Source: Oleiphilus sp.
Lineage (GTDB): Bacteria > Pseudomonadota > Gammaproteobacteria > Pseudomonadales > Oleiphilaceae
Assembly: GCA_006212045.1 (NCBI GenBank)
Contig: PZPK01000013.1
Location: 62,001 to 126,000, forward strand
Reading direction: 5' to 3'
DNA: 64,000 bases
A program made the position numbers and the translations under genes. The notes below the pieces were generated by a model that did not search any database, was not told the DNA's origin, and saw nothing but the letters and a program-made list of their open reading frames with translations. The first letter of the stretch is position 1. Each line of letters starts with the position of its first letter. Shown here piece after piece: positions 5,132 to 54,867 of the stretch.

Positions 5132-6694
5132 ATGACACGAATCGAGCTGAACCGAATTACCAAACGCTATCCCGGATGTGTCGCAAACCGGGACGTATCT
5201 CTGTCGGTTGATGGCGGAGAAATCCATGCCCTGTTGGGAGAGAATGGCGCCGGTAAAAGCACCTTGATGAAGATTATCTATGGTGTCGTGAAGCCCGATG
5301 CCGGAGATCTGTTCTGGGAAGGCGAGCATGTTGAAATACGGGGTGCAGGTCATGCGCGAGGCCTTGGTATTGGCATGGTGTTCCAGCATTTTTCCTTGTT
5401 TGAAACCCTGACCGTCGCTGAAAACATAGCGCTGAGTCTGCCTGCGAGCGAAGTTGGATCGATGGACACGCTCAAGGCGCGTATTACCGAAGTGTCGGTG
5501 CGTTACGGCATGAGGCTGGATCCCGACAGAACCGTGCATTCGTTGAGCATTGGCGAACAGCAGCGGGTGGAGATCGTGCGTTGCCTGCTGCAGAACGTCA
5601 AGTTATTGATTCTGGATGAGCCAACCTCGGTTCTGACGCCGCAGGAAGTCGAAACGCTTTTTGCCACCTTGCACCAGCTGGCCGCTGAAGGCTGCAGCAT
5701 ACTGTTTATTTCGCATAAACTGGATGAGGTGATCGCGTTGTGTGATCGTGCCACCATTCTGCGTGCAGGTCAGGTCACAGGCGAGTGCGTTCCGGAACAG
5801 GTCAGTGTTGAGGAGCTTGCCAGAATGATGGTCGGGGACGAAACACCACTCAGCGAAAACTACAGTAAAAAGGACGGTGGTGAAATTTTACTGGAGTGTC
5901 GCAAACTGAACTATCGGCCAGAGGACCCTTTTGCGAGCGCGCTTCAGGCGATTTCACTGCAACTGAAAGCGGGTGAAATTCTGGGTATCGCAGGTGTTGC
6001 GGGAAATGGTCAGGAAGAATTGATGCGGCTGATCAGTGGGGAAGAAACGTCGGCGGCAGATACGGTGGTGTTAAATGGTCGCTCGATCGGAAAGGACGGG
6101 CCGGCCAAACGGCGCGCACAGGGCTTGTGCGTGGTGCCAGAGGAACGCTTGGGGCGTGGGGCAGTGGCCGATATGTCGCTTGAGAACAATGCCCTGCTGA
6201 CGGCCTATCAATCCGGTCTGGTGTCTGGGAATGGCTGGCTCAATCTGGGGCAGATCAGGAAATTTACACAGCGCATTCTGTCCCGGTTTAATGTCAAAGC
6301 AGAGGGGTCATTGGCGCAGGCCAAGAGTCTTTCGGGCGGTAATCTGCAAAAATTCATACTTGGACGGGAAATTCTTCAGCAACCCAGGGTACTGATCTGT
6401 TCGCATCCAACCTGGGGCGTTGATATTGGTGCTGCGATCCTGATTCGGCATGCCCTGATTGAGCTGCGTGACCAGGGCGCGGCGGTACTGATGGTCTCTG
6501 AAGATATTGATGAGTTGTTTATGATTTGTGACCGGCTCTGCGGTATTTGCGATGGCCGCCTGTCCCCTGTCAGAAAAACCGGCGATCTGTCGATTAACGA
6601 GCTAGGGCAGTGGATGGCGGGCCAGTTCGACGTGGAGTCCGAATTATCGGATTCAATCACCGATTCCAATTCGATAGAGGAACAGGCGCTTTGA
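5132..6694 (+). CDS. ABC transporter ATP-binding protein (nucleoside/purine, BMP-type system; two ATPase domains)
   Basis: Walker A GENGAGKST, LSIGEQQRVEI, second LSGGNLQKFILGRE signature. Confidence 0.9.
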   Translation: MTRIELNRITKRYPGCVANRDVSLSVDGGEIHALLGENGAGKSTLMKIIYGVVKPDAGDLFWEGEHVEIRGAGHARGLGIGMVFQHFSLFETLTVAENIALSLPASEVGSMDTLKARITEVSVRYGMRLDPDRTVHSLSIGEQQRVEIVRCLLQNVKLLILDEPTSVLTPQEVETLFATLHQLAAEGCSILFISHKLDEVIALCDRATILRAGQVTGECVPEQVSVEELARMMVGDETPLSENYSKKDGGEILLECRKLNYRPEDPFASALQAISLQLKAGEILGIAGVAGNGQEELMRLISGEETSAADTVVLNGRSIGKDGPAKRRAQGLCVVPEERLGRGAVADMSLENNALLTAYQSGLVSGNGWLNLGQIRKFTQRILSRFNVKAEGSLAQAKSLSGGNLQKFILGREILQQPRVLICSHPTWGVDIGAAILIRHALIELRDQGAAVLMVSEDIDELFMICDRLCGICDGRLSPVRKTGDLSINELGQWMAGQFDVESELSDSITDSNSIEEQAL

Positions 6695-7824
6695 GTTCGC
6701 AGCGGTCTAAACATCTGTTCGGTGTGCGTCTGGAAAAAAGAGCTTCTGATTCGCGATGGATGGCTTATTGCTCCCCGTTGCTGGCGATACTGCTGACACT
6801 GTTGTGTGGTGCGGGAATTTTTGCGTCTTTGGGGCATGCACCCGGTGCGGCACTCTATACCTTTTTCCTTCAGCCTCTGGAAGACTTCTACGGCTGGACT
6901 GAACTGGGTTTGAAAGCCTCCCCGCTGTTGTTGTGTGCGATGGGGCTGGTGCTCTGCTTCAAAGCCAAAATCTGGAATATTGGTGCTGAGGGCCAGTTTA
7001 TTATTGGTGCACTGGGTGGCGGTTATATGGCGCTGCAATTGGACTCCATGGAGGGACCATGGGTGCTGTTTGCGGTGGTTGCTTTTGGCGCCTTGTGCGG
7101 CATGCTCTGGGCAGCGTTGGCGGCACTCCTTAAAACCCGCTTTGCCTGCAATGAAATTTTGACCACCATTATGCTCAATTATATTGCGCTGAACTGGCTG
7201 TATTATTCGGTGTATGGCCCCCTCAAAGATCCGGCCGGATATAACTTTCCCGAATCTGCACTGTTTTCGGACAGCAGCCTGTTGCCCTTGCTGTTTGACG
7301 GCTATCGACTCAACATCAGCCTTTATTTCGCACTTTTGGCGCTGGCCTGCGTTTGGACATTAATGTCGCGCACCTTGTTCGGGTTCCAGATTGCCGTATT
7401 GGGCGAGGATGCCTCGGCAGCCCGTTACGCTGGCTTTAAACAGAATCGCCTTGTCTGGCTGGCGTTGCTGGTTTGCGGGGCATTGGCCGGCCTGGCAGGC
7501 ATTTCAGAGGTGACCGGGCCTGTGGGCCAATTGAATGCCAATATTTCTCTTGGCTACGGCTATGCTGCAATCATTGTGGTCTTTCTGGGGCGCATGCACC
7601 CGGTTGGTATTCTGTTCGCAAGCGTTTTGCTGGCCCTGACGTTTATGGGCGGTGAAATGGTGCAAATGGAACTGACCTTGCCCAAATCCCTGACCGGGCT
7701 ATTCCAGGGCATGTTGCTGTTTTTCCTGCTGGCCTGCGATTTTCTGATCGGATACCAGCTGCAGTGGTCGCGCCCGAATCGCAAGATTTCAACTGTCGAT
7801 ATTGCACAAAAGGCCCAGGAGTAA
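6691..7824 (+). CDS. ABC transporter permease (nucleoside/purine uptake, NupP-like)
   Basis: Hydrophobic; KIWNIGAEGQFIIGALGGGY typical of BMP-associated permeases; likely TTG start overlapping the ATPase stop (TTGA). Confidence 0.85.
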   Translation: MSSQRSKHLFGVRLEKRASDSRWMAYCSPLLAILLTLLCGAGIFASLGHAPGAALYTFFLQPLEDFYGWTELGLKASPLLLCAMGLVLCFKAKIWNIGAEGQFIIGALGGGYMALQLDSMEGPWVLFAVVAFGALCGMLWAALAALLKTRFACNEILTTIMLNYIALNWLYYSVYGPLKDPAGYNFPESALFSDSSLLPLLFDGYRLNISLYFALLALACVWTLMSRTLFGFQIAVLGEDASAARYAGFKQNRLVWLALLVCGALAGLAGISEVTGPVGQLNANISLGYGYAAIIVVFLGRMHPVGILFASVLLALTFMGGEMVQMELTLPKSLTGLFQGMLLFFLLACDFLIGYQLQWSRPNRKISTVDIAQKAQE

Positions 7825-7827
7825 GAA

Positions 7828-8754
7828 ATGGATGCCGATCTGATCATCAATATCCTCTACGCGACGCTTCGTACCGGTACGCCTTTGTTGCTGATTGCCC
7901 TCGGTGAATTGGTCTGCGAAAAATCGGGCGTACTGAACCTCGGGCAGGAGGGCATGGTATTGATGGGCGCAGTCACAGGGTTTATGGCAGCTGTTGTCTC
8001 AGGCAGTCTGTTTACCGGAGTGCTTGTGGCGGTTTTGTGTGGCATCGGTATGGCTCTGCTGTTCGGATTTCTTGCCATTACGCTGGTGTCCAACCAGGTT
8101 GCGACAGGTTTGGCCCTCACTATTTTTGGTGGCGGTTTAAGTGCTTTTCTCGGAAGCAGCTATGTGGGAATTGGTATTGAGGGCTTCACACCCTGGGAAC
8201 TGCCACTGCTGAGTGAAGTGCCGGTGCTGGGCAAGATATTTTTCTCACATGACCCTTTGGTCTATGTCTCCTGGATTTTGTTCATTGCGGTGTACTGGTG
8301 TTTTCGGTCCAGCCGGGCGGGGCTCATTATTAGGGCTGTTGGCGAGAACCCCGAAGCGGCCAATGCGCTCGGCATGCGCGTTTTTCTGGTGCGATATGCC
8401 GCCGTGGCCTTCGGTGGTGCTATGGCAGGTTTGGCGGGCGCGTATCTGTCGCTTGCCTATACGCCGCTTTGGACGGAGGGAATGTCTGCAGGGCGCGGCT
8501 GGATTGCTCTCGCGCTGGTGGTGTTTGCATCCTGGCGACCGGAACGTGTACTTTTGGGCGCCTATCTGTTCGGAGCGGCCAGTATTTTGCATCTGGTGCT
8601 ACAGGGTCTGGGATTTGAAGCGTCACCCAATTTGTTGGCGATGCTGCCTTACGTGGCGACCATTCTCGTGTTAATGCTGATTGCCAATGATGCAATCAAA
8701 GCGCGACTGAATACGCCATTTGCCTTGGGCAAACCATTTCGGCCACAATTGTGA
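7828..8754 (+). CDS. ABC transporter permease (NupQ-like)
   Basis: SGVLNLGQEGMVLMGAVTGF motif; adjacent to the first permease. Confidence 0.9.
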   Translation: MDADLIINILYATLRTGTPLLLIALGELVCEKSGVLNLGQEGMVLMGAVTGFMAAVVSGSLFTGVLVAVLCGIGMALLFGFLAITLVSNQVATGLALTIFGGGLSAFLGSSYVGIGIEGFTPWELPLLSEVPVLGKIFFSHDPLVYVSWILFIAVYWCFRSSRAGLIIRAVGENPEAANALGMRVFLVRYAAVAFGGAMAGLAGAYLSLAYTPLWTEGMSAGRGWIALALVVFASWRPERVLLGAYLFGAASILHLVLQGLGFEASPNLLAMLPYVATILVLMLIANDAIKARLNTPFALGKPFRPQL

Positions 8755-8856
8755 GCTTTACATAAGGGATGTCCTCGATGTCAGGTCAACGCTAACGGTT
8801 GTTGGCATTTATAAAAACCAAGCACGGGCACCGTGCGATAGTTAACAGGAGAAAAT

Positions 8857-9960
8857 ATGAACCCGATGCAAAGGTTTAAAAACATAATCAAGAGGCCGCT
8901 TGGCTCCTTTGCTGTTGCCGCGGGTCTGGCCGCCATTGCTGCCACGGTCAACGCTGATCCGCTTAAAGTAGGGTTTATCTATGTGGGGCCTACCGGTGAT
9001 GCGGGGTGGACATATTCCCATGATCTGGGCCGGCAGTATGTAGAGGCGCAGCTAGGCGACAAAGTGGAAACGAGCTATGTCGAGAGTGTGTCTGAAGGGG
9101 CCGATGCCGAGCGCGTGATTCACCAGATGGCGTCAAAGGGACATGAACTGATATTTACGACGTCCTTCGGTTATATGAATCCCACTTTAAAGGTGGCCAA
9201 ACGTTTCCCGAAAGTGGTCTTCGAGCATGCGTCCGGCTATAAGCGGGCGAAAAATATGGGCACCTATTTCACACGTGCCTACCAAGGGCGTTACCTGACA
9301 GGACTGGTTGCCGGCAAGATGACAAAGACCAACGTGCTTGGCTATGTAGCTTCCTTCCCGATTCCTGAAGTAATTCGGGGAATCAATGCGTTTACCAAAG
9401 GCGCTCGTGAAGCGAACCCGGATGTCACGGTAAAGGTTGTATGGGCCAGCACTTGGTATGATCCGGCCAAGGAGAGGGAGGCGGCAGAAACCCTGATCCT
9501 TCAGAATGCGGACGTACTGACGCAGCATACGGATTCTGCGGCGATCATTCAGTCAGCTCAGGCCAAGGGTGTTTACGCGATCGGCTATCATTCGGACATG
9601 TCACTTTATGGTAAAGACGCACACCTGACCGCTACCGTGCATAATTGGGGGCCTCTGTATCTTGAGAAGGCTCAGCAAGTCATCGATGGAAGTTGGAAGG
9701 CGGTCGATCTGTGGCCTGGGATTGCAGAAGGGACGACGGATATTGCGCCTTTGAATGCGGCTGTGCCCGAAGAAGTGAAGCAGCTGGTAGCAGAGAAGAA
9801 AGCGGCGATTAAAGCCGGAACCCTGCGTGTATTTGATGGTCCGGTGGTGAATCAGAAAGGAGAGATGGTCGTGCCTGCCGGTGAAAGTCTGGAAGACGCC
9901 GCTTTGCTGGGGATGAATTATTATCTGCAGGGTGTTCAAGGCAAGTTGCCTCAGTCCTGA
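8857..9960 (+). CDS. BMP-family ABC transporter substrate-binding protein
   Basis: Signal peptide; KVGFIYVGPTGDAGWTYSHDLGR..; TTSFGYMNPTLKVAKRFPKVVFEHASGYK. Confidence 0.92.
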   Translation: MNPMQRFKNIIKRPLGSFAVAAGLAAIAATVNADPLKVGFIYVGPTGDAGWTYSHDLGRQYVEAQLGDKVETSYVESVSEGADAERVIHQMASKGHELIFTTSFGYMNPTLKVAKRFPKVVFEHASGYKRAKNMGTYFTRAYQGRYLTGLVAGKMTKTNVLGYVASFPIPEVIRGINAFTKGAREANPDVTVKVVWASTWYDPAKEREAAETLILQNADVLTQHTDSAAIIQSAQAKGVYAIGYHSDMSLYGKDAHLTATVHNWGPLYLEKAQQVIDGSWKAVDLWPGIAEGTTDIAPLNAAVPEEVKQLVAEKKAAIKAGTLRVFDGPVVNQKGEMVVPAGESLEDAALLGMNYYLQGVQGKLPQS

Positions 9961-11747: not shown

Positions 11748-13262
11748 TTAGTTGGTCAGCACGACCAAGCCGGCTGTTGTAATCACTGCACCGGCACTTT
11801 CATCCGGACCTCTGGCAACAACAGACAGCACGTCTCCCGCCGTAATGGTCACCGATAGTGCCTCAGTGACCAGAGTGCTGGTGCCTGCGGCCATCACGAA
11901 AATGTCATAATCTGTGCCCAACGCATCAGCGGCGACATCCACGTATCCGCTGTCGCCCTTGAAGGCGAAGTCTGTCAGCAGAGCCGTCGCACCAGCGACC
12001 ACATTGGTGCTATTAAAGTCGCCGGCTGCTGTGACATAAACATCCACGTCTTCAACCGCCGCTGCCGCATGGATCACTTTAACCCGCGCATGCGTGGCGT
12101 AGGCACGATTTTCATCTGCACTGGCGATCAGCTCAAATGCCGGTTGGTCATCGGTCGGCACGACATAACCCACAGCGATGACCGTATTTTCTGCGCCTGC
12201 CAACAGGGCCAGCTCGCCGCTGGTGTAAACGGCATCGGCATTAGTGTCGGTGTCTGGTGAAACACTGAAGATATAGTCACCCGCTGCCACCGGGGCATAC
12301 TCATCCGTATCAACGACGATATCACCGTAGGAGAATTCATCGATCAGCTGCACTGTGCCATTGGCGTAGACTTCTACCGCCCCGCCAGCTGCGTCTGCCG
12401 CGTCGGGTGACAGGTGAACCACTTTTGCGCCGGTCTCCGTGTCAGTATCCAGCAGAGTGGTGTCCAATGAGTTGTTGTTGGCAACAGCTCTGGAGCTTGC
12501 CTCAGTGATCACGACCAGTTTCACAGGTGAGGAATCGAGTTCCAGCTGGTTGGTCGTGTTCATGGCCGCAATCAGCAATTTCTCACCGGCGTATGCGCTC
12601 AAATCCAGTTCGCCCGAGTCATAAAGTACATTAGCGCTATTACCATCCTCAGTGATCCGCACCTGATAGCTCGCAGTAGCGTCCACCGGAGCCGGAAGCT
12701 CTGCACTGTCAAGATAATCTGCATCGATAGGGGAACTTAGAGCGCCCCCGAACGCTGTGATGTAAATATCCACATCAGCGGCGACCGGAGCCGCATGCAC
12801 TACCTTGATTGTGATTTCGTCAGCTTCCGGTTCGTTTACCGGATCCGACACGATGAGTGCGTCCAGTTGTTTGGACGGATCAGCATCGTCGCCGGTGTCT
12901 ACCGTGCCCACCGCAAAGATCGTGGTCATGGCATCTTCTGCCAGGGCGGTACCATTAACCTCAATCACAGAAGGGTCGTCGCCGGGCACAATCGCTGACA
13001 CAGCAATGTCGTATGTGCCGTCATCAATGCCTTTGAATCCTGAACTGTTGGCGTAGTCCAGCATGGAAATCCGTGCGTTACCGTTAAAAAGAATGTTGAC
13101 GGGAGGCGCATCCGGGACGGCATGTACCGCTCTCACGTAAGTTTTTTCTTCAAGGACCAAGGGATCATCACTATCGCTGCACCCGGTCATTAAAAGCGTT
13201 AAAGAGGCTAGAAGCGCCGCAGAGGACTTTTTCCCTGGTCTGGAAATTGTTCGATTAAACAT
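11748..13262 (-). CDS. DUF4397-repeat lipoprotein
   Basis: Lipobox LMTGC; repeated VRAVHAVPDAPPVNILFNG / IKVVHAAPVAADVDIYI / AKVVHLSPDAADAA..VEVYANG / VKVIHAAAAVEDVDVYV units. Confidence 0.8.
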   Translation of the reverse strand: MFNRTISRPGKKSSAALLASLTLLMTGCSDSDDPLVLEEKTYVRAVHAVPDAPPVNILFNGNARISMLDYANSSGFKGIDDGTYDIAVSAIVPGDDPSVIEVNGTALAEDAMTTIFAVGTVDTGDDADPSKQLDALIVSDPVNEPEADEITIKVVHAAPVAADVDIYITAFGGALSSPIDADYLDSAELPAPVDATASYQVRITEDGNSANVLYDSGELDLSAYAGEKLLIAAMNTTNQLELDSSPVKLVVITEASSRAVANNNSLDTTLLDTDTETGAKVVHLSPDAADAAGGAVEVYANGTVQLIDEFSYGDIVVDTDEYAPVAAGDYIFSVSPDTDTNADAVYTSGELALLAGAENTVIAVGYVVPTDDQPAFELIASADENRAYATHARVKVIHAAAAVEDVDVYVTAAGDFNSTNVVAGATALLTDFAFKGDSGYVDVAADALGTDYDIFVMAAGTSTLVTEALSVTITAGDVLSVVARGPDESAGAVITTAGLVVLTN

Positions 13263-52944: not shown

Positions 52945-53347
52945 CCTTTAAAAATGATCTATTGGAGAGAGCAGGGGGCCGAAAGGTCCTCTGATTTTTT
53001 GCACCTTGGTCCTCGCGCAATAAACAAGTGATCACATCAGTAAGCTGCGGAGCCTGTAGAAAAACCTCAGGGGCTTTCAACGAAGCGCACTTGGGTTAAT
53101 TTAAGAACAAAAGTAGACCCAAAATCTAGCTGCTTTTCACGTAGCGATGTCATTTTTAGATCAAATATTATACGAATTCTACAGAATTAAAATCGATGGA
53201 GTTTCTCTACAGCCAGAACGCCCGGCTCACCGAGCAAATTTTTGATGGCGGCTTTTGTGCGTGTTTTTGCACAAAAGGTGACAGCGAAGATTTTAAACTA
53301 AAGAAAAATCGCTATTTTGACTCCGCTTTGTGATTACTTCATGACAG

Positions 53348-53390
53348 CTAACAGTGTGTTTAACGAACCTTCCAGTCCGCTAAACACGTT
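53348..53390. repeat. 43-bp attC-like palindrome, copy 1
   Basis: CTAACAGTGTGTTTAACGAACCTTCCAGTCCGCTAAACACGTT; one mismatch to copies 2 and 3. Confidence 0.85.
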
Positions 53391-53654
53391 TTAGTTGTCA
53401 CTTTTAGCACCATGTGTAAAAAGAAGGTACTTAGGAGCGAAACTCGTGAATACGACGCTACCTGAGATATGACTTAAAACCAACCCAATGAAAACACCTG
53501 ATAACATAATTAATTCAAATGGCTCTATGAACATAATAAAGCAAACAAGCAATACTTCGAGCGCAGAAAAGAAGAAGAGGAAGCCAGCACAAATCCGATA
53601 AAACGTTTTAACCTTTGCTACTTCATTTCTCGTGGGATATTTCATTGCATCCAT
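53391..53654 (-). CDS. Small two-TM hypothetical protein encoded in module 1
   Basis: 87-codon ORF, hydrophobic; fills the interval between repeats 1 and 2. Confidence 0.55.
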   Translation of the reverse strand: MDAMKYPTRNEVAKVKTFYRICAGFLFFFSALEVLLVCFIMFIEPFELIMLSGVFIGLVLSHISGSVVFTSFAPKYLLFTHGAKSDN

Positions 53655-53667
53655 TCTCTAATGACAA

Positions 53668-53710
53668 CTAACAGTGTGTTTAACGAACCTTCCGGTCCGC
53701 TAAACACGTT
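53668..53710. repeat. 43-bp attC-like palindrome, copy 2
   Basis: CTAACAGTGTGTTTAACGAACCTTCCGGTCCGCTAAACACGTT. Confidence 0.85.
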
Positions 53711-53724
53711 TTAGTGCCATTATT

Positions 53725-53745
53725 TGTATATGGTGATAATATACA
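53725..53745 (+). promoter_or_regulatory. Candidate operator upstream of toxin-antitoxin pair
   Basis: TGTATAT-N7-ATATACA perfect inverted repeat ending 3 nt before the ATG at 53749. Confidence 0.5.
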
Positions 53746-53748
53746 GAA

Positions 53749-54048
53749 ATGATTAATTGGAAACAAATTAAAGGCTTTAACTGGGATGCTAGTAACGAAA
53801 GAAAAAGCGCTGATAAGCACAGTGTTAGCCAATTAGAAGCCGAACAGTTGTTTTTTAACGAGCCTTTACTGCTTCTGCCAGACAAGAAGCATAGTGATAA
53901 AGAACCTAGATACCATGCCCTTGGTATTACAGATCAAGGGCGACAGCTGCATATTACGTTTACGCTGCGTGAAGATAATACCTTGATAAGAGTGATCTCC
54001 TCACGCCCAATGCACAAGAAAGAGAGGAAATTTTATGAACAAGCATAA
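53749..54048 (+). CDS. brnT: BrnT-family toxin
   Basis: FNWDASNERKSADKHSVSQLEAEQLF.. RYHALGITDQGRQLHITFTLREDNTLIRVISSRPMHKKERKFYE matches the BrnT fold pattern. Confidence 0.82.
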   Translation: MINWKQIKGFNWDASNERKSADKHSVSQLEAEQLFFNEPLLLLPDKKHSDKEPRYHALGITDQGRQLHITFTLREDNTLIRVISSRPMHKKERKFYEQA

Positions 54049-54310
54049 ACAGCCTCCAAAGTTTAAAACAGAGGCCGAAGAGAGAACATTTTGGGAGCAA
54101 AATGACTCAACGGAATATTTGGATTGGAGCAAAGCTGAGAAAGTGACTATGCCCAATTTAAAGCCATCTACAAAGACCATTTCTTTGCGCCTGCCTGAGT
54201 CTTTACTTGAAAGTATTAAGATTGAAGCTAATCGAAGAGATATGCCTTATCAATCATTGATTAAAGTTTGGCTTGCAGATGACGTGAAACAGAGCCGCCA
54301 TGCTTCTTAA
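54035..54310 (+). CDS. brnA: BrnA/CopG-family antitoxin
   Basis: Overlaps brnT by 14 bp; FWEQNDSTEYLDWSKAEKV..KTISLRLPESLLESIKIEANRRDMPYQSLIKVWLADDV ribbon-helix-helix. Confidence 0.82.
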   Translation: MNKHKQPPKFKTEAEERTFWEQNDSTEYLDWSKAEKVTMPNLKPSTKTISLRLPESLLESIKIEANRRDMPYQSLIKVWLADDVKQSRHAS

Positions 54311-54314
54311 AGCA

Positions 54315-54357
54315 CTAACAGTGTGTTTAACGAACCTTCCGGTCCGCTAAACACGTT
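54315..54357. repeat. 43-bp attC-like palindrome, copy 3
   Basis: Identical to copy 2. Confidence 0.85.
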
Positions 54358-54867
54358 ATCTACGTTTTGATTAATTTACGATTACCCAATCATATCAGTT
54401 ATTTACGGCAACTGATGAGATATATGTCATTGAAAAAAGCGGACCGATTGTTCGCCTTTTCTCTTAGGGGATTGTACGCATTTAGATTTTTCTATTTTAA
54501 ATCAATGGGCTACGTAAGCTAGCTATCGGGAGCAGAGAGGAAAAAGCGGACCCTTTCATAAATCTGTAATAAAGGCACCCAAAAACGTCCGCTTTGCCCT
54601 TCGGATGGAGTTTGATTTTAATCGGCTGGAATGTCTGCTCTTCACCAACAGCAAATGCGGTGTCACCCTCCAATTTAGGTCCGCAGTGAGGGAGAAGCAG
54701 ACTGAAAATTCGGTACGTCATCCCCTCAGCTGCCAAATGTCTTGAGACTAAAACAAAACTCAAAGCTTCAGTCCGCTTTGTCTATGAAACCAACGCGAAT
54801 ACAACCAGCGGCGATAGAATTTCGACCAGACTTCGTTTCAGTTCGAGCCACATGGATTGCCGCCTTC

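Follow-up and report, generated by a model that had tools for sequence, protein, structure and literature searches.

The locus discussed here spans positions 53205 to 54577 of the window, the 64,000-nucleotide stretch of Oleiphilus sp. DNA that we analyzed, and is read along the minus strand. Its genome (G000) comprises 4.43 Mb in 79 contigs. A 43-bp motif is found exactly at 53348-53390, 53668-53710, and 54315-54357, just as a preceding sequence-only reading of this DNA had reported; zero copies are expected in shuffled sequences. The genome-wide search proposed in that reading returned no further copy of the 43-mer at up to three mismatches across the 4.43 Mb, but it did return one integron integrase gene (intI; contig C64, 413 bits). 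Integrons are bacterial gene-collecting systems, and in their terms the locus is laid out as follows.

54358..54577, minus strand: leader (attI region), conserved relative to contig G001:C61; intI would be expected at higher coordinates and is missing
54315..54357, minus strand: site 1, the probable attI-type palindrome of the leader; putative crossover G54319|T54318
53672..54318, minus strand: cassette A, 647 bp, whose 3' end bears site 2; brnT/brnA lie inside, reversed
54035..54310, plus strand: brnA-like antitoxin gene, 91 aa (PF12441 CopG_antitoxin, E=1.5e-35)
53749..54048, plus strand: brnT-like RNase toxin gene, 99 aa (PF04365 BrnT_toxin, E=1.7e-21, above cut-off)
53668..53710, minus strand: site 2, cassette-borne palindrome; putative crossover G53672|T53671
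53352..53671, minus strand: cassette B, 320 bp, bearing site 3
53391..53654, minus strand: called ORF, 87 aa, probable small membrane protein
53348..53390, minus strand: site 3, cassette-borne palindrome; putative crossover G53352|T53351
53205..53300, minus strand: remnant similar to a canonical attC in its right half (..AAAAGCCGCCA..GCCGGGCGTT), the apparent end of a decayed last cassette

The brnA-like gene also reaches 62.5 bits with the BrnA model NF047399 (cut-off 60). The 87-aa ORF of cassette B starts with an ATG about 14 nt past the junction, its stop codon adjoins site 3, and no Pfam family scored over the cut-off for it. Within the 39-nt core, site 2 does not differ from site 1 and site 3 differs at one position. 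The remnant includes a long inverted repeat and shares 42 bp at 90% identity (E=4e-9) with the interior of a canonical attC from the related genome G004 (contig C3); an R'' box was not found for it.

Tblastn detected neither intI nor an intI relic in the window, in agreement with the earlier statement that no integrase is in view. A CALIN is recognized by at least two integron-type sites bounding small cassettes, and by an intI that is missing nearby yet present in related arrays. Here, three sites delimit two cassettes, 647 and 320 bp long, and intI adjoins the same site in G001:C61. Like published CALINs, the locus combines several recombination sites and cassettes with the absence of a nearby intI (PMC9024848); unlike them, it retains the intI-side leader, and its sites are not canonical attC. 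When an empty site was looked for, orthologues of the flanking mscS and cupin genes were not found in the same-genus genomes at the limits used. The locus is almost certainly an array of integron cassettes with no integrase gene alongside. The CALIN-like array postulated from the sequence has thus held up well, given an intI elsewhere in the genome and in relatives, further arrays, and self-complementary cassette ends. Because the copies mark the junctions of cassettes, neighboring intI and canonical attC in relatives, and do not lie singly in unrelated intergenic places, and because the cassette ends are self-complementary, a REP/MITE-like dispersed repeat or a transcription terminator flanking small genes by chance is very improbable, even though one copy matches a terminator-like pattern.

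The functional orientation of the sites is the minus strand, the reverse of the frame in which they had first been read. On this strand, they follow the pattern R''(YYTAA) AA[A/C] GTGTTTAGCGGACC GGAA GGTTCGTTAAACAC ACT G|TTRNNN, the cores of the three sites being G|TTAGTG, G|TTAGTT, and G|TTAGCT, near the consensus GTTRRRY, with ACTG|TTA nearly invariant among relatives. The departure from GTTRRRY ascribed earlier to the right core is genuine on the plus strand, but this 'right core' is the R'' side of the site; the plus-strand GTT is a local variant that reads TTT in relatives. Both strands form the hairpin in single-strand folding, and the fold originally described was recovered, with AGT unpaired on one arm, a 7-bp GTGTTTA/TAAACAC stem, and a mismatch in the inner stem. 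The regular form contains mismatches and no bulged (extrahelical) bases, in contrast to the attC-like extrahelical bases that had been suggested for one arm. A bottom-strand hairpin, the fold that the sequence-only reading had proposed to check, does form, yet the top strand is equally or more stable: the energy of the bottom strand minus that of the top strand amounts to 0 to +5 kcal/mol for the short sites vs. -3.9 to +0.2 kcal/mol for canonical attC of the same genus. Six pairs of the stem have changes on both sides, most strikingly in the relative L093:1990 (GTGTTTGATGG/CCATCAAACAC), and sliding the partner columns abolishes the pairing. This compensated stem, retained even in the diverged L093:1990, points to a role for the folded form, as in attC.

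Published attC sites range from 57 to 142 nt and carry two or three extrahelical bases that steer the use of the bottom strand (PMC2727003). The sites under study resemble them in having R''- and R'-like boxes, the G|TT core, the hairpin, and a spacer (PMC2727003). They differ in spanning 51 nt from R'' to R', in their one-sided spacer, in the absence of extrahelical bases, and in a top-strand hairpin that is the stabler one; hence, neither the length nor the extrahelical bases nor the bottom-strand folding bias of canonical attC is found in them. Of the boxes, R' (G|TTAGTG, G|TTAGTT, and G|TTAGCT) approximates the canonical GTTRRRY, and R'' in relatives reads YYTAA, lacking the final C of the canonical RYYYAAC.

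If cassettes circularize, the head that follows G| must pair with the tail that precedes the cassette's own site. This holds for cassette A, where TTAGTGC at the head is complementary to GCACTAA at the tail (7 nt), and for cassette B, where TTAGTTGTCA is complementary to TGACAACTAA (10 nt), a pair also detected as an inverted repeat. We compared heads and own tails in 14 cassettes from the window and its relatives, whose ends were set by reading the sites and thereafter by a fixed rule. The uninterrupted matches summed to 92; permutation gave a mean of 51 and a maximum of 78, so that none of 100,000 permutations reached the observed sum; two cassettes (G004C19b_1 and G000C28_1) failed to match. 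In six of the 14, a short site at one end is combined with a canonical attC of 75-100 nt at the other, and there is one further case besides these; one machinery consequently handled both kinds of site. Where a short-site cassette has a clear main ORF, it points in the array direction, the exception being brnT/brnA in the window.

Conservation does not stop abruptly to the right of the third copy, as had been claimed, but continues for about 220 bp (54358-54577). Across about 275 columns, this leader shares 74.5% identity with the one in an uncultured Oleiphilus (G001:C61), which lies between an intact intI and the first cassette. The intI of G001:C61 is directed away from the array, the standard integron layout. 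It is located 240 nt from the same palindrome, scores 384 bits with TIGR02249 (cut-off 265), and encodes a protein that aligns over its full length with the structure 2A3V of the V. cholerae integrase VchIntIA (E=1.9e-75). The leader of the window also resembles leaders on contigs C3, C5, C17 (two), and C19 of G004. Its R'' (TAGATAA) finds nothing to pair with inside or close to the leader, in contrast to the cassette copies, and the leader copy therefore belongs to the platform; the idea that the leader hairpin might be the attC of a promoter-only cassette was dropped, its R'' being unpaired within the leader. A promoter scan of the leader gave nothing above chance. Repeated AAAAAGCGGACC / GTCCGCTTT motifs were seen in it (54436-54600) and around the arrays of relatives.

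An intI is present in three of the four same-genus genomes. The sole intI of G000, at the end of contig C64, represents a different lineage with 45% identity to that of G001:C61, and this contig runs out before any cassette. Upstream of the gene (12440-12666 of the extracted locus, L037), a LexA-box-like CTGTTTGCATATACAG was spotted by eye, suggestive of SOS control.

To qualify as attI, a site must adjoin intI where the first cassette is inserted. The palindrome occupies this place in G001:C61 and, outside the genus, at two of 30 intI loci checked (G528:C8 and G466:C114), where it ends AACTG|TTA; the window has the leader but no intI. In G528:C8, from another family, an intact intI is accompanied by the same GGACC-GGAG-GGTCC core and by AACTG|TTATG, and a canonical attC follows the first cassette, so that the palindrome is linked to attI there. 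Judged from its placement, it evidently travels with attI instead of attC, in G528 at least. In unrelated Gammaproteobacteria (G528:C8, G466:C114, and G539:C56), we also saw attI regions beside intI that contain palindromes or palindromic motifs in repeated form. In G011, an intI relic lies near a similar palindrome in a non-standard arrangement.

Cassettes of a related kind have been described. In class 1 and 2 integrons, 'unusual' cassettes of the delta-attI type have the junction R''|AAACAAAG|TT and are attributed to a crossover that joins the L side of attI with the R'' of attC (PMC12901181, which traces them to Partridge 2000/2009). The junction here, YYTAA|AA[AC]-site, matches this junction, and the cassette copies begin directly after R''. 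From there to G|TT, those of the window equal the site of their own leader over 39-nt cores with zero or one difference. Both systems thus have an R'' followed by a platform attI piece in place of attC, the order attI-ORF-attI, and a mixture with canonical attC. The present one differs in that its attI piece is a 39-nt palindrome and recurs across several cassettes and genomes of marine Gammaproteobacteria, within chromosomal arrays; the pieces of the class 1 and 2 cassettes mostly measure 14-18 nt, in one case 244 nt, and palindromes are not described (PMC12901181). The attI1 site of class 1 integrons likewise belongs to the platform, adjoins intI, and has a TAAA..G|TTRRRY core, but it contains the direct repeats DR1/DR2 in place of a 14-bp hairpin (PMC12901181).

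Collectively, describing the sites as attI-type palindromes that platform and cassettes have in common seems to us more apt than calling them canonical attC, and we somewhat favor this description. It builds on the leader and site beside intI in G001:C61, on cassette units with self-complementary ends, on short sites that have no canonical attC features and yet are mixed with canonical attC in one array, and on the local variants AACG and GGAAGGTT that the window sites have in common with their own leader. In minus-strand order, the array would start with an attI-like leader with its palindromic site, followed by cassette A, cassette B, and a decayed cassette end. The palindrome would serve a genus-specific integron lineage as its attI-type site; behind R'', the attC of the cassettes would have been replaced by this site through a crossover between the R'' of attC and the L side of attI, with recombination presumably at G|TT. 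Relative to their own leader, the window cassettes carry zero or one change, and those of G001:C61 carry none in one cassette and 10 in another. Several observations speak against this description: only two of 30 intI leaders checked outside the genus have such a palindrome, a cassette site in G004:C19 deviates from its own leader at two positions and is identical to another leader, the G000 arrays on C28 and C18 have no leader, the arrangement in G011 is not the standard one, the compensated stem points to the folded form as in attC, and head/tail complementarity is equally expected of true attC.

Whichever way the sites are read, the array may be an inert fossil, a platform that has lost intI and no longer recombines, and we regard the chances of this as evenly balanced. 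Neither intI nor a relic lies beside it, the distal site is decayed, and the only intI of the assembly is of another lineage; against this, the three sites are nearly identical with intact stems, and integrases can use sites that belong to other integron classes (PMC12901181). Any present-day mobility by IntI would be possible only in trans, as the sole intI of the genome lies on another contig.

That the palindromes are true attC, unusually short and genus-specific, with the leader copy an attC fixed beside intI that took over the role of attI, is the main alternative and seems to us less likely. The V. cholerae repeats are a homogeneous attC set, and attC of sedentary integrons are restricted by genus; the distribution of the palindrome, largely within the genus, is of this type. 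The compensatory stem changes, the GTTRRRY-like core, and the R''/R' pairing in each cassette fit as well. A length of 51 nt as compared to 57-142 nt, the absence of extrahelical bases, the opposite strand bias, and the placement at attI in G528, whose first cassette bears a canonical attC, do not. Hence, the initial interpretation as attC stands insofar as these are integron recombination sites, while attC in the strict sense is doubtful in view of the reversed orientation, the absence of extrahelical bases, length, strand bias, and the attI position in G001:C61. More tentative still is an extension of the attI-type description in which one palindrome serves as platform and cassette site, new cassettes arise when attI is copied behind any R'', and several leaders that have conserved ends but no intI (six in G004) are extra docking platforms for a distant integrase.

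How the sites are read bears on the way in which gene cassettes are made; the origin of cassettes and their acquisition of recombination sites is listed as a question still to be answered (PMC12901181). Chromosomal arrays of natural origin whose cassette site equals the palindromic platform site, amid canonical attC, would offer natural substrates for the attI-to-cassette route. Extrahelical bases impose single-strand recombination. Two double-stranded attI recombine through classical second strand exchange, a step normally blocked by extrahelical bases (PMC4792948). Without such bases, the short sites would be open to this double-strand route, and they could serve as natural substrates for testing it.

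A pattern scan of named genomes located related sites in uncultured Oleiphilus and Oleiphilaceae MAGs. With a covariance model, the site was detected in three genomes of the genus and, as weak forms, in a second genus of the same family (G011); among 369 genomes of the class, there was no convincing match, the weak ones in G229 and G337 looking like chance on inspection. Viral contigs and plasmids contained no copies; the plasmid matches concerned the brnTA genes only. Rfam 15 gave no relevant match. In G004, six leaders and about nine array ends with a conserved tail occur, none adjoining intI. There, the final canonical attC in many small arrays (L040, L042, L067, L068, and L136-L148) is succeeded by a tail G|TTRATRCGTACTAAGAATGAAAAGCGGACAT, which has 16 partial or full copies in this one genome; no empty copy was found in which tails (G|TTRATRCGTACTAAGAATG) and leaders would be the halves of one platform. 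Elsewhere in G000, the covariance model identified more copies on C28, C18, and C32, plus weaker ones. The leaderless array on C28 (L064, 243000-262000 of the contig) has three related sites amid defence genes (5457-9389 of the extracted locus), with genes for a CBASS-like cyclase (8520-9389) and a NucC effector (7757-8518) upstream of the sites and, past the last site, one for an 'Aga' pPIWI-associated nuclease (5457-6299).
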